DNA of 64,000 bases from Vibrio hippocampi (lineage in GTDB: Bacteria > Pseudomonadota > Gammaproteobacteria > Enterobacterales > Vibrionaceae), in assembly GCF_921292975.1 (NCBI RefSeq), contig NZ_CAKLCM010000002.1:2046001-2110000 (forward strand), given 5' to 3'. The position numbers were made by a program, and so were the translations under genes. The number at the start of each line of letters is the position of its first letter. Position 1 is the stretch's first letter. Below are positions 12,465 to 20,326 of the stretch, piece after piece. The notes under the pieces were generated by a model. The model ran no database searches, was not told the DNA's origin, and saw only the letters and a list, made by a program, of their open reading frames with translations.

Positions 12465-14159
12465 ATGGACTTAATTCTCTCTTTGCTACAACAGATGTGC
12501 GTTTATCTTATGTTAGCTTATATGCTAAGTAAGACGCCGCTGTTTATCCCTTTGTTTAGTGTATCTAAACGCTTAAGCCACAAATTCAGTATCTATGTGC
12601 TGTTTTCATCGTTCTGTATTTTAGGCACCTACCTTGGGTTGCAAATTGATGATGCGATAGCTAACACGCGCGCAATTGGTGCCGTTATGGGCGGGTTATT
12701 TGGAGGACCTATTGTTGGCTTTTTGGTGGGATTGACGGGAGGAATGCACCGCTACTCTCTCGGCGGGTTTACCGATTTGGCTTGTGCCATCTCGACCACT
12801 TCAGAAGGTATTGTCGGCGGACTCATTCATCTCTACTTTGTAAAAAAACAGCGCTCAGAACAGCTATTCAATCCCTTAGTGGTCTTCCAAGTCACCCTTG
12901 GGGCTGAGATGCTACAAATGCTGATTATTTTGCTGGTCGCTCAACCCTATGAGCAAGCCTCAACACTGGTTTCAAATATTGCCGCCCCAATGATCATCGC
13001 GAACTCTATCGGTGCCGCCCTGTTTATGAATATTTTGGTCGATAGAAAAACCATCTTTGAAGAGTATTCCGCCACTTTTTCTAGGAGAGCTTTAAATATT
13101 GCCGAGCGCTCCGTTGGTATCCTGGTGAACGGCTTTGACTCTCAAAATGCTAGCAAGATAGCCAATATTATTTATGAAGAAACCAACGTCGGGGCAGTCG
13201 CTATCACTGACCATGAAAAGATACTGGCATTTGTCGGCATTGGCGCTGACCACCACTTACGCAATCGACCGATCTCGTCAAAAAGTACGCTCAACGCGAT
13301 GACGAATAACGAAATCATCTACCTTGATGGTAAAGAAACCCCTTATCAATGCTCATTATCTGCGGATTGTAAACTTGGCTCTGCTTTAATCATTCCGCTG
13401 CGAACTGGGGATACAGTAATCGGCACCATTAAGCTGTATGAACCGAAACGCAAGCTTATTTCTACCATCAATATGTCCATGGCTGAAGGGATCGCTCAAT
13501 TGCTATCTAGCCAGATCTTACATAGCGAGTACCTCAACAAACAGGCTTTGTTAAACCAAGCCGAAATCAAACTATTGCATGCTCAAGTCAATCCCCATTT
13601 TCTGTTTAATGCCCTCAACACCATTAGCGCGATTACCCGTCGAGATCCTGATAAAGCGCGTGAACTTATTCAGCACCTGTCCCAATTCTTTAGAAGTAAC
13701 CTAAAACAGAATATCGAAACCGTGACGCTCAAAGAGGAACTGGCGCACGTTAATGCCTATCTCACCATCGAGAAGGCGCGCTTTAGTGATCGCCTAGAAG
13801 TAGAGTTCGACATTGCACCAGAACTGCTGCAATTGGAACTTCCTAGCTTTACCCTGCAACCGCTGGTAGAGAATGCGATTAAGCATGGTGTCTCTCAGTT
13901 GCTCAGTTCTGGTTGGGTTCGTATCTACAGTCAAAACAGCGAGCAAGGCTATCGGATTATTGTTGAAGATAACGCCGGTGAGTACGCTCCGCCCAAGAAG
14001 GAACATGCTGGTTTGGGCATACAAATCGTCGATCGCCGACTACAAAATAAATTTGGTCGTGATTCAGCGCTTAAAATTGAAGTTGAACAGCACCAATACA
14101 CGCGAATGAGCTTTATCATTCCGGATGCCGTTGTATCCCAAAACGAAAGGATTGCTTAG
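12465..14159 (+). CDS. btsS: Pyruvate-sensing histidine kinase BtsS (LytS/YehU family)
   Basis: BtsS is a membrane LytS-type kinase that in E. coli senses extracellular pyruvate with high affinity and phosphorylates BtsR. The 564-aa protein begins with LLQQMCVYLMLAYMLSKTPLF and the 5TM-5TMR domain (about residues 1-190, GAVMGGLFGGPIVGFLVG). A GAF-like region follows (about 205-345), then the kinase core with the phospho-acceptor His378 in NPHFLFNALN and an ATPase domain (LQPLVENAIKHG, GLGIQIVDRRL). Similarity to E. coli BtsS runs the whole length and is clearly closer than to YpdA. btsR follows after 5 bases. A transporter gene preceded by BtsR-type repeats lies 4 kb downstream. Confidence 0.9.
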   Translation: MDLILSLLQQMCVYLMLAYMLSKTPLFIPLFSVSKRLSHKFSIYVLFSSFCILGTYLGLQIDDAIANTRAIGAVMGGLFGGPIVGFLVGLTGGMHRYSLGGFTDLACAISTTSEGIVGGLIHLYFVKKQRSEQLFNPLVVFQVTLGAEMLQMLIILLVAQPYEQASTLVSNIAAPMIIANSIGAALFMNILVDRKTIFEEYSATFSRRALNIAERSVGILVNGFDSQNASKIANIIYEETNVGAVAITDHEKILAFVGIGADHHLRNRPISSKSTLNAMTNNEIIYLDGKETPYQCSLSADCKLGSALIIPLRTGDTVIGTIKLYEPKRKLISTINMSMAEGIAQLLSSQILHSEYLNKQALLNQAEIKLLHAQVNPHFLFNALNTISAITRRDPDKARELIQHLSQFFRSNLKQNIETVTLKEELAHVNAYLTIEKARFSDRLEVEFDIAPELLQLELPSFTLQPLVENAIKHGVSQLLSSGWVRIYSQNSEQGYRIIVEDNAGEYAPPKKEHAGLGIQIVDRRLQNKFGRDSALKIEVEQHQYTRMSFIIPDAVVSQNERIA

Positions 14160-14164
14160 TCGTG

Positions 14165-14887
14165 ATGAAACCACTACGCGCATTAATTATTGATGATGAA
14201 CTTTTTGCCCGCGAAGAGTTGGCGCAATTGCTAGAAGAAACGGGGCAAGTAACGGTGGTAGGCAAAGCCAGTCATGCTATCGAAGGTCTAAAGCTGCTCA
14301 ATCAACTCAAACCTGATGTGGCTTTCCTTGATATTCAAATGCCTCAGATTACGGGAATAGAACTCCTGACTATGCTCGATCCGGAGCACCGTCCGCATAT
14401 TGTATTTGTTACGGCTTATGATCAATATGCCATCCAAGCATTTGAAGATAATGCTTTCGATTATTTGCTGAAACCGGTTGATCCCTGCCGACTAAATAAA
14501 ACGATTCAACGGTTAGAAAAACACGGCACGGTGCAAACTGAGATCGATAAGATTGCCCCCGCGCAGTTAGAACAAATCCCTTGTTCTGGTCACAACAGGA
14601 TCGTGATTATCGCCTCTCATGATGTGGAATTTGCCTATAGCGATCTTTCTGGCGTGCATATTCAAACGGCAACACAAAAAGCTACCTCACAGCTCACCCT
14701 AAAAGTTATTGAGGACAAAACGCCCCTTATTCGCTGCCACCGACAATTCTTGGTGAACATCAAAGCGATCAAAGAGATCAAACTGCTTGATAATGGCTTG
14801 GCCGAAATCATCACGCTCAGTGGTCACCCTATTCCGGTTAGCCGCCGTTATCTCAAAGCATTAAAAGAAACGCTGGGGTTTCATTAA
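14165..14887 (+). CDS. btsR: LytTR response regulator BtsR
   Basis: BtsR is the partner of BtsS. It has an N-terminal receiver domain (ALIIDDELFAREELAQLL, phospho-acceptor Asp56 in VAFLDIQMP, conserved Lys in DYLLKPVDP). The C-terminal LytTR DNA-binding domain (about residues 135-240, with IRCHRQFLVNIKAIKEI and PIPVSRRYLKALKE) recognises direct repeats rather than palindromes. ATG at 14165 is preferred; GTG at 14162 is directly upstream in frame. The likely target is the CstA-family transporter at 18836, which has four ACCRCTYA-like repeats at 20-bp pitch. Confidence 0.92.
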   Translation: MKPLRALIIDDELFAREELAQLLEETGQVTVVGKASHAIEGLKLLNQLKPDVAFLDIQMPQITGIELLTMLDPEHRPHIVFVTAYDQYAIQAFEDNAFDYLLKPVDPCRLNKTIQRLEKHGTVQTEIDKIAPAQLEQIPCSGHNRIVIIASHDVEFAYSDLSGVHIQTATQKATSQLTLKVIEDKTPLIRCHRQFLVNIKAIKEIKLLDNGLAEIITLSGHPIPVSRRYLKALKETLGFH

Positions 14888-18205: not shown

Positions 18206-18550
18206 TTATCGACTAGAGTAATCTTGCCAACCGCGCTGCCACTCCATTCTGAAACGCTGTGCATCGGGCAAGCCATCACAAGCTCCGGTGTAATACTGCC
18301 CAGATAAACCTATCTGATAAGCAAACCTCACATCACAGAACTCTGCGACGCCTTGCTCATAACCTTGTTGATAGTCAGACATCACCGTTGCACCATACTG
18401 ATTTAAGTCGCTGTAGCTTCTTGCTAGTTGCCCTCTTACACCGTCTTGATAGCCAATTTGTTGCCAGTCACCCTCTTTTGCTAACTCATCTAGGCTCGGC
18501 GCGCAACCAGTAAGCAGCAGGGACACGACAATCCACGGTAGTAATTTCAT
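18206..18550 (-). CDS. DUF2799 lipoprotein
   Basis: This is a small lipoprotein of unknown function. The signal peptide MKLLPWIVVSLLLTGC has a clear lipobox (LTGC). The mature part shows repeated Gly/Gln/Tyr turns (GYQDGVRGQ, YQQGYEQGV, FAYQIGLSGQYYTGAC) characteristic of DUF2799. Two cysteines remain after the lipid-anchor Cys, possibly a disulfide. I chose ATG at 18550 because AAAGG lies 6 bases before it; the in-frame ATG at 18556 would abut that Shine-Dalgarno. Its stop touches the bidirectional terminator shared with murQ. Confidence 0.8.
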   Translation of the reverse strand: MKLLPWIVVSLLLTGCAPSLDELAKEGDWQQIGYQDGVRGQLARSYSDLNQYGATVMSDYQQGYEQGVAEFCDVRFAYQIGLSGQYYTGACDGLPDAQRFRMEWQRGWQDYSSR

Positions 18551-18678
18551 ATTCATCCTTTCGTCTGGGTATTTTCAAGCTGGAAATGGAATCGGTATAC
18601 AATGCCAGTTAATGTCTTCGAATACTACTCTGAGCGCTGAACTTGATGGCTCTCACAGTTTGATTACCTTGCTGACGC

Positions 18679-18746
18679 ACCACTGAACCGCTCATAAAAC
18701 CACTTAGTTTCTATATCGACCACTTAACTCGCAAGATAACCACTCA
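18679..18746 (+). promoter_or_regulatory. Four BtsR-type direct repeats at exact 20-bp pitch
   Basis: ACCACTGA (18679), ACCACTTA (18699), ACCACTTA (18719) and ACCACTCA (18739) start exactly 20 bp apart, and an extra ACCGCTCA lies at 18687. The E. coli BtsR element is two copies of ACC(G/A)CT(C/T)A separated by 13 bp; here the gap is 12. The ladder ends about 90 bp before the transporter start, in the place of an activator-binding region. Confidence 0.85.
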
Positions 18747-18835
18747 ACCAATCCTCACCATCAAACCAACCGCAAGCCAGTAAAATTAACCACAGAAATT
18801 TTTACTTACATATCACTTAAAAAGGACAGAGAACT

Positions 18836-20326
18836 ATGTTGTGGTTTTTAACCTGCGTTGCAGCTCTTATTGGTGGTTACTTTATTTATGGCGCCTTTAT
18901 TGAAAAGGTGTTTGGAATTAATGCTAACCGTCAAACTCCGGCTTACACCAAAACCGATGGTGTGGACTATGTGCCAATGTCGACCAAAAAGGTTTACTTA
19001 GTACAACTCCTCAACATTGCTGGCGTTGGTCCGATATTTGGTCCCATTATGGGCGCGTTATATGGTCCTGCGGCAATGCTCTGGATCGTGATCGGTTGTA
19101 TTTTTGCAGGGGCGGTGCATGACTACTTCTCAGGCATGTTATCAGTAAGAAATGGTGGCGCTTCTGTCCCGTCGATTACCGGTCGCTACTTGGGCAATGG
19201 CGCAAAACACTTTATGAATATCTTTGCCATTGTTCTGCTGTTACTGGTTGGTGTGGTGTTCGTATCTGCACCTGCAGGGATGATTACTAATCTAGTCAAC
19301 GATCAGTTCGATATGTCCATCACGATGACGTCCATGGTTGTGATCATCTTTGCTTACTACATCATCGCGACGATCGTTCCAGTTGATAAGATCATTGGTC
19401 GCTTCTACCCACTATTTGGTGCGCTGCTTATCTTTATGTCTGTCGGTCTAATGACCGCCGTCGCCGTATCGAGTGAGCATACCGTCATGGGTGATTTCCA
19501 GTTCAGTGATATGTTTACCAATATGAACCCTAACGATCTTCCGCTTTGGCCGGCTCTATTTATTACTATCGCTTGCGGTGCTATCTCTGGCTTCCATGCC
19601 ACTCAATCTCCACTAATGGCGCGTTGTATGGAGAATGAGAAAAACGGTCGCTTTGTCTTCTATGGGGCGATGATTGGTGAAGGTGTGATTGCGCTAATCT
19701 GGTGCGCGCTTGCTCTGTCCTTCTTTGGCTCTATCGACTCTTTAGCTGAAGCGGTGAAAAATGGCGGACCGGGTAACGTGGTTTACAGTGCCTCTTTTGG
19801 TCTGCTGGGTGTGTTTGGCGGCATTCTGGCTTTCCTTGGTGTGGTGATTCTACCGATTACCTCGGGTGACACCGCGTTCCGCTCAAGCCGACTCATTCTT
19901 GCGGAGTACTTCAATATGGAGCAAAAGTCGCTGCGTAACCGCCTGCTCATGGCTCTGCCTCTGTTCGTTCTTGGTGGCATTTTAACTCAGGTCGACTTTG
20001 GTATTATCTGGCGTTACTTTGGTTTCGCTAACCAGTCAACCGCGGTGATGATGCTTTGGACTGCTTCAGCTTACTTGCTACGCCATAATAAACTGCACTG
20101 GATCACCACGATTCCGGCGATGTTTATGACCACGGTCTGTATTACTTTCATTCTTAACAACAGTTCGCTCGGCTTTGGCTTGCCAATGCAAATTTCGACT
20201 CTAGTCGGCATTGTGACAACACTGGCTATCACCGCTTACGTGATTCGAATCTCTAAAGGCAAAGGCGAGAGAGAACTTCCAGAAGAGCGTGAAACTGAAG
20301 CGAAATCGCAGGTAAAAAACGCCTAA
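18836..20326 (+). CDS. CstA/BtsT-family transporter, probably pyruvate or peptide uptake
   Basis: This is a polytopic inner-membrane protein of the carbon-starvation CstA family, which in E. coli includes CstA and the pyruvate:H+ symporter BtsT. It has about 12 or more hydrophobic segments. Conserved stretches are GVGPIFGPIMGALYGP, HDYFSGMLSVRNGGASVPS, ISGFHATQSPLMARCM and ILPITSGDTAFRSSRL. At 496 residues it is the short class, lacking the long C-terminal part of the roughly 700-aa enterobacterial proteins. AAAGGACAG precedes ATG 18836. The BtsR-type repeats upstream and btsSR nearby suggest induction by pyruvate; the substrate is an inference. Confidence 0.88.
   Translation: MLWFLTCVAALIGGYFIYGAFIEKVFGINANRQTPAYTKTDGVDYVPMSTKKVYLVQLLNIAGVGPIFGPIMGALYGPAAMLWIVIGCIFAGAVHDYFSGMLSVRNGGASVPSITGRYLGNGAKHFMNIFAIVLLLLVGVVFVSAPAGMITNLVNDQFDMSITMTSMVVIIFAYYIIATIVPVDKIIGRFYPLFGALLIFMSVGLMTAVAVSSEHTVMGDFQFSDMFTNMNPNDLPLWPALFITIACGAISGFHATQSPLMARCMENEKNGRFVFYGAMIGEGVIALIWCALALSFFGSIDSLAEAVKNGGPGNVVYSASFGLLGVFGGILAFLGVVILPITSGDTAFRSSRLILAEYFNMEQKSLRNRLLMALPLFVLGGILTQVDFGIIWRYFGFANQSTAVMMLWTASAYLLRHNKLHWITTIPAMFMTTVCITFILNNSSLGFGLPMQISTLVGIVTTLAITAYVIRISKGKGERELPEERETEAKSQVKNA

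Follow-up and report, generated by a model that had tools for sequence, protein, structure and literature searches.

Ladders of ACCRCTYA-type octamers at a 20-bp pitch upstream of btsU, a CstA-family transporter gene of Vibrionaceae

The operator of the E. coli response regulator BtsR (YehT) at btsT (yjiY) is described as one pair of repeats separated by a 13-bp gap. In many bacteria virulence, competence and nutrient uptake are under the control of LytTR regulators. As stated in PMC4847170, almost all LytTR sites consist of two repeats, and the two direct repeats recognized by E. coli YpdB are bound by monomers, sequentially and cooperatively, the first helping the second; the sequential loading is proposed there to give a pulse. 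The YpdB 'AB-BA' site at yhjX and LytTR operators are described as direct repeats with 11–13 bp gaps, an arrangement shared by the ladder reported below. The BtsSR-BtsU circuit is already known from V. campbellii, for which one pyruvate sensor and one transporter are described (PMC9504724), the latter being named BtsU (PMC10653868). The V. harveyi target gene is listed as close to the two-component system in Table 1 of PMC5552118, and the deduced motifs are displayed in Fig 3B of the same source. In the literature surveyed, no promoter of this kind was found described with three or more sites for BtsR or another LytTR regulator; Kraxenberger 2012 (E. coli) and Going 2021 (V. campbellii) lay outside the survey, so priority is not judged here. 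With this proviso, a long ladder of fixed pitch and naturally variable length appears to be new.

The window analysed is a stretch of 64 kb from Vibrio hippocampi, and all positions given refer to it. The genes considered here are the following.

12465..14159, plus strand: btsS, LytS-type sensor kinase, 57% identical to E. coli BtsS (Pfam, alignment)
14162..14887, plus strand: btsR, LytTR response regulator, 50.6% identical to E. coli BtsR (Pfam, NCBIfam)
18206..18556, minus strand: DUF2799 lipoprotein gene, divergent, across the ladder from btsU (Pfam)
18836..20326, plus strand: btsU, CstA-family transporter of 496 aa (Pfam PF02554, 198.3 bits)

As in V. campbellii, one pyruvate sensor pair and one transporter are found, and BtsU has itself as sole match in the genome of the window at E 0.001. 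BtsR features the Pfam domains Response_reg and LytTR, and scores 364.8 bits (cutoff 246) with the NCBIfam BtsR equivalog NF008677. Its residue D57 aligns with D54 of E. coli BtsR, which we take to be the phospho-acceptor Asp. Solved structures matching BtsR by sequence (E 1e-8) span the N-terminal receiver part, not the LytTR domain. BtsS features the Pfam domains 5TM-5TMR_LYT and His_kinase. Arg72, Arg99, Cys110 and Ser113, named in PMC10653868 for pyruvate binding by BtsS, and His382, named there for phosphorylation, are all conserved in the alignment to the E. coli protein. BtsU measures 496 aa and E. coli BtsT 716, with 26% identity over the main segment; the BLASTP segments pair BtsU 2–288 with BtsT 37–379, and BtsU 391–440 with BtsT 565–615. 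BtsU had been described in the initial annotation as lacking the long C-terminal part of BtsT. The protein is shorter, but by the BLASTP segments, which reach BtsT residue 615 of 716, residues are missing at both ends and in the middle, and the shortness seems not to be only C-terminal.

Upstream of btsU, octamers of the ACCRCTYA type mark the plus strand as follows.

18679..18686, plus strand: rung 4 (distal), ACCACTGA, one mismatch to ACCRCTYA (read from the sequence)
18687..18694, plus strand: off-phase exact octamer, ACCGCTCA, at an offset which is not conserved in relatives
18699..18706, plus strand: rung 3, ACCACTTA, exact to ACCRCTYA (sequence)
18719..18726, plus strand: rung 2, ACCACTTA, exact to ACCRCTYA (sequence)
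18739..18746, plus strand: rung 1 (promoter-proximal), ACCACTCA, exact to ACCRCTYA (sequence and anchored base counts)

The rungs start at 18679, 18699, 18719 and 18739, at a pitch of exactly 20 bp, and are separated by 12-bp gaps. Of the two marks of the BtsR operator, direct repeats of ACC(G/A)CT(C/T)A upstream of the target are found in the window; in place of the second, two copies with a 13-bp gap, there are four copies with a 12-bp gap. The description made from the letters alone, four such octamers 20 bp apart, more numerous than in E. coli and more closely set (12 bp), upstream of a CstA-family gene with btsSR less than 4 kb away, is thus correct.

Single exact octamers number 11 in the 64 kb versus 6.45 expected, and 4 of 100 shuffles reach 11: a lone octamer is common, and the signal is therefore the spacing. 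Over the whole 4.59-Mb genome of the window, the two-rung pattern (12-bp gap, up to 2 mismatches) has 27 matches. The matches with up to 1 mismatch are 3, all inside the btsU ladder, the backward control with 1 mismatch in the same genome being also 3; the remaining 24 have 2 mismatches and are noise, since the backward-pattern control yields 60. The two-rung pattern is too noisy alone across Vibrionaceae, and a three-rung pattern was therefore used instead.

Conservation was analyzed in the best 80 of at least 586 related loci, 67 from Vibrionaceae and 13 from other bacteria, a sample which leans to close relatives. Pairs of octamers (up to 1 mismatch each) in these best 80 of at least 586 loci occur 188 times at a 20-bp lag and 28 times at 21 bp, and at most 4 times at any other lag between 8 and 39 bp. 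The lags of 8 and 12 bp, at which the octamer at 18687 stands from its neighbours, have 3 pairs each, which is background. The fifth copy signalled in the initial annotation exists, but its offset is not conserved, and on the lag counts it was rejected as a conserved part of the ladder.

At least three in-phase rungs were identified in 60 of the 67 Vibrionaceae btsU promoters (among the best 80 of at least 586 loci), in chains which may skip one rung. Rung number varies from promoter to promoter in these 67: 0 in one, 1 in two, 2 in four, 3 in 21, 4 in 14, 5 in 14, 7 in five, 8 in two, 9 in two and 10, the maximum, in two. The longest ladders, of 10 rungs, reside in V. harveyi and V. owensii and span 188 bp. 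Order-1 Markov controls reached at most 2 rungs, in 6 of 1340 trials. Strict chains of three or more rungs, with no skipping, are found upstream of btsU in 57 of the 67 Vibrionaceae loci (best 80 of at least 586), and nowhere else on either strand of the 1.145 Mb which these 67 loci make up. When the octamer was permuted (200 permutations, 67 loci), 181 permutations gave no locus with a chain of three, 17 gave 1 to 9 loci, and two gave 49 and 57; the latter two may be equal or nearly equal to the motif. A chance origin of the ladder is rejected on the genome-wide pattern counts, the Markov controls and the strict-chain scan. The comparison of copy number and spacing in Vibrionaceae upstream regions, proposed when the row was first noticed, thus reveals three or more copies in most promoters of the sample and a dominant 20-bp lag. 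The ladder is not a local oddity of the window.

Fewer than three rungs are present in 7 of the 67 Vibrionaceae promoters (best 80 of at least 586 loci). Two of these reside in organisms without a BtsR ortholog; four (L048, L051, L059, L071) have 2 rungs each, with BtsR present. In V. aestuarianus (L010), in which BtsR is also present, the ladder is decayed yet in phase, with an exact octamer at -127 and octamers with 2 mismatches at -107 and -87. Shewanella loci among the best 80 of at least 586 feature 21-bp steps and 1–3 rungs, so a step of 20 bp is no general requirement of BtsR. The BtsU proteins of Marinomonas (L065, L069) group in the tree with that of a Vibrio (L054), and their genes are preceded by 3 and 2 rungs, respectively, at 20 bp; transporter and operator may have moved together. 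The btsU match in one locus (L042:8001-9879) measures 1879 bases, versus the usual 1476 or so.

Rows of repeats at a constant pitch may also be formed neutrally, by replication slippage, and a whole 20-bp unit has seemingly been lost in one promoter: that of L006 (L105 has the same letters) is apparently one unit shorter, with the register kept. In a simple tandem repeat whole units are alike, spacers included, which is not what was found. Adjacent 12-bp spacers within a promoter are 31% identical (n=114) versus 32% for random spacer pairs, and the rungs were therefore not freshly copied from each other. Across 244 in-phase rungs (up to 1 mismatch) information resides mostly in the octamer, the gap featuring weak A/T preferences. 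In five distinct harveyi-clade promoters octamers are 90.6% identical and spacers 80.2%; for the six distal rungs the values are 86.5% and 69.9%, and 97.3% for the five core bases. The full harveyi-clade alignment has nine rows which are not independent, as L085 repeats L004 and L095 repeats L005. Ladders are moreover missing where BtsR was lost, and the 1.145 Mb scanned on either strand contain no other such chain, both at odds with slippage. A slipped tandem repeat is rejected on spacer identity, and a neutral origin of this kind is extremely improbable.

The tie of the ladder to BtsR was analyzed in 329 Vibrionaceae genomes, 309 of which carry btsU (E 1e-30) and 294 BtsR (E 1e-50). The three-rung pattern, allowing up to 3 mismatches and matched genome-wide, was found in 268 of the 329, but is loose, its backward control being found in 44 of 329. 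Matches are present in 267 of 292 genomes with both BtsU and BtsR, and in 0 of 17 with BtsU and no BtsR (one of the 17, G085, is 74% complete, the others at least 98%); they are present in 0 of 2 genomes with BtsR only, and in 1 of 18 with neither gene. The strict 20/20 pattern is missed by 25 of the 292 genomes with both genes. Seven of these 25 (G047, G161, G162, G231, G234, G254, G302) were read upstream of the gene, and feature three rungs at steps of 20 and 21 bp. Where the upstream sequence was inspected directly (26 of 30 loci were readable), a 20/21-bp pair was found in 0 of 15 genomes lacking BtsR versus 11 of 11 BtsR-positive sisters. One genome without BtsR, G171, has a chance-like pair of octamers 42 bp apart.

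In the ladderless Photobacterium loci L060 and L064 the best BtsR match in the genome is 35–36% identical. These two loci belong to one Photobacterium group (with L142-L148 and L150-L152) in which btsU is kept, BtsR was not found and the ladder is absent. The rows lacking BtsR need about three changes in the BtsU tree, only one of them forced by well-supported branches. The changes being few, the co-loss of BtsR and ladder corresponds to a handful of events.

The position of btsSR varies by clade. The two genes are found upstream of btsU beyond nagZ-anmK-murQ, downstream of it, or upstream without those genes, and the ladder is at btsU in all three gene orders; rung number and gene order are both common to near relatives. 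In a set of loci (L004-L006, L011-L015, L020-L025, L027, L029, L032, L044, L046-L048, L050, L071) btsS and btsR lie behind btsU on the same strand, and here expression of the sensor itself may depend on the ladder as well, in a positive feedback. The initial annotation had btsU as the probable BtsR target. This view gains from the presence of the ladder at btsU in three gene orders, from its absence from 15 of 15 promoters of genomes lacking BtsR, and from the identity of the octamer with that of the E. coli BtsR site. Most probably, the octamers are the BtsR operator that activates btsU, and btsU in the window would accordingly be controlled by pyruvate.

Promoter elements were searched in 61 promoters, the window and 60 from the best 80 of at least 586 relatives, anchored on the proximal rung. 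Base frequencies (per cent) are T74 A84 N N A67 T74 at +43 to +48, a -10-like block, and A72 T77 G92 at +20 to +22, a -35-like block located 17 bp from the former. The putative -35 starts one ladder step past the start of the last rung. In the window, the corresponding elements are the following.

18758..18763, plus strand: putative weak -35, CCATCA, 19 bp past the start of rung 1 (placed by hand)
18781..18786, plus strand: putative -10, TAAAAT, 17 bp after the putative -35 (at +42, versus +43 in relatives)

The window itself retains little of the -35 block. In another LytTR group, repeat pairs with a 12-bp gap are described as ending, as a rule, about 10 bp before the -35 (PMC6193735), and the distance from ladder to putative -35 resembles that of other LytTR promoters. 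A AGCGAATG-like block, placed between the last rung and the putative -35, is conserved near +15 to +22 in the 61 promoters, and is poorly kept in the window (18754-18761).

No factor is assigned to the block at +15 to +22, and the ladder sits between two divergent genes; the ladder could be the operator of a regulator other than BtsR, or serve the DUF2799 gene. The former is opposed by the octamer, which is shared with the BtsR site upstream of E. coli btsT, and by the lack of ladders where BtsR was lost. As to the latter, DUF2799 was not detected (tblastn, at least 35% identity) in 16 of the 60 Vibrionaceae loci with three or more rungs (best 80 of at least 586), and an operator of this gene is disfavoured on synteny. 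Either assignment is very unlikely.

If the octamers are the BtsR operator, BtsS would bind outside pyruvate and phosphorylate BtsR. Phosphorylated BtsR would in turn bind the octamers head-to-tail through its LytTR domain, one protein per 20-bp step, each bound monomer helping its neighbour. The last one would contact sigma-70 RNA polymerase, the -35 lying about one step further on, and btsU would be induced sharply, allowing renewed uptake of pyruvate. A row of BtsR, one per 20 bp and ending at the polymerase, would be the simplest extension of the loading described for YpdB, and BtsR probably assembles along the btsU ladder in this way. It had been suggested at the outset, from the pitch of about two helical turns, that the proteins load cooperatively on one DNA face. 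Two turns of 10.5 bp make 21 bp, and the 20-bp step falls about 1 bp below this; by arithmetic each rung is rotated by about -34 degrees relative to the last, which adds up to almost a full turn in a ladder of ten. A single DNA face is therefore only roughly true of the rungs and fails over 10 of them, and a flat row is unlikely in long ladders, unless DNA is overtwisted or bent.

Almost all LytTR operators are described with two repeats; in contrast, most of the 67 Vibrionaceae btsU promoters have three to ten. That all rungs are used is favoured, with considerable reserve. It is possible, with a lower probability, that function resides solely in the two rungs nearest to the promoter, on the model of the E. 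coli pair, and that the others are spare sites or decoys which buffer BtsR. In nine harveyi-clade rows, some of them from the same genomes and two of them shifted out of register in their upstream part, identity is 0.90–1.00 for the proximal four octamers versus 0.71–0.84 for the distal five; some species have 2–3 rungs only, and a LytTR site is in general said to consist of two repeats (PMC4847170). All this would fit a role of the proximal pair alone. Yet distal rungs hold the 20-bp phase over 188 bp while spacers diverge, the five distinct harveyi-clade promoters have 97% identity at five core bases in their six distal rungs, and the L006/L105 promoter, apparently one whole 20-bp unit shorter, keeps the register, features which speak against a role of the proximal pair alone.

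A bolder and rather doubtful proposal is that Vibrionaceae BtsR forms a phosphorylation-driven head-to-tail filament on a 20-bp ruler of up to 10 sites, with RNA polymerase next on the ruler. As a 20-bp step does not complete two turns, such a filament would be superhelical and wrap DNA. Evolution would adjust the length of the ladder to set the sharpness or the duration of the switch to pyruvate uptake, and the familiar two-site LytTR operator would be the minimal case of a polymerising mode of general occurrence. Streptomyces BldC is described as binding cooperatively to a variable number of direct repeats, and a response regulator called AcrA as able to bind multiple tandem repeats (PMC5859096); direct-repeat number varies also for OmpR-family regulators (PMC7380067). 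BldC filaments and OmpR-family operators provide a works-like analogy for many repeats bound by one factor, but BldC and OmpR-family folds differ from LytTR, and the BldC step is about one helical turn, the ladder step about two. Rung number may tune the response, and naturally varying, countable rungs make a ready series on how copy number acts on a two-component switch, in its threshold, its steepness and the length of its pulse.

The E. coli btsT operator features the same octamer as the Vibrio ladders, in the same orientation, upstream of the gene of a CstA-family pyruvate transporter. It differs in being described as a pair with a 13-bp gap, whereas the window has four rungs with a 12-bp gap, and relatives up to 10. 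In K-12 the pair upstream of btsT is made by ACCGCTTA and ACCACTCA, separated by 13 bp. A third rung, GCCGCTCA, is located 20 bp upstream of the pair, with a 12-bp gap, and a doubtful fourth, GTCACTTA (2 mismatches), another 20 bp upstream. Ten related btsT promoters, all of one family (BtsT 87–97% identical), were compared: 8 have three rungs at 20/21-bp steps, with up to 1 mismatch each, and the other two have three rungs only if a 19-bp step or a rung with 2 mismatches is accepted. The account of btsT in the initial annotation, two repeats with a 13-bp gap, stands for the pair, but misses the third rung seen in K-12 and in 8 of 10 relatives. The SPR probe published for the E. coli BtsR site includes the third rung (PMC4847170). 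These data suggest that BtsR of E. coli has an operator of more than two sites.

An E. coli yjiY (btsT) reporter is described as mimicking the E. coli pattern in V. harveyi, and as failing in S. marcescens and A. hydrophila (PMC5552118); the V. harveyi behaviour fits a Vibrio BtsR reading the E. coli sites. Loci L191-L204, from family f27, whose genomes measure 2.2–2.9 Mb, encode BtsT proteins 85–88% identical to the E. coli one, an identity which may denote gene transfer. A pair of octamers (up to 1 mismatch) at 21 bp is found in 11 of these 14 loci.
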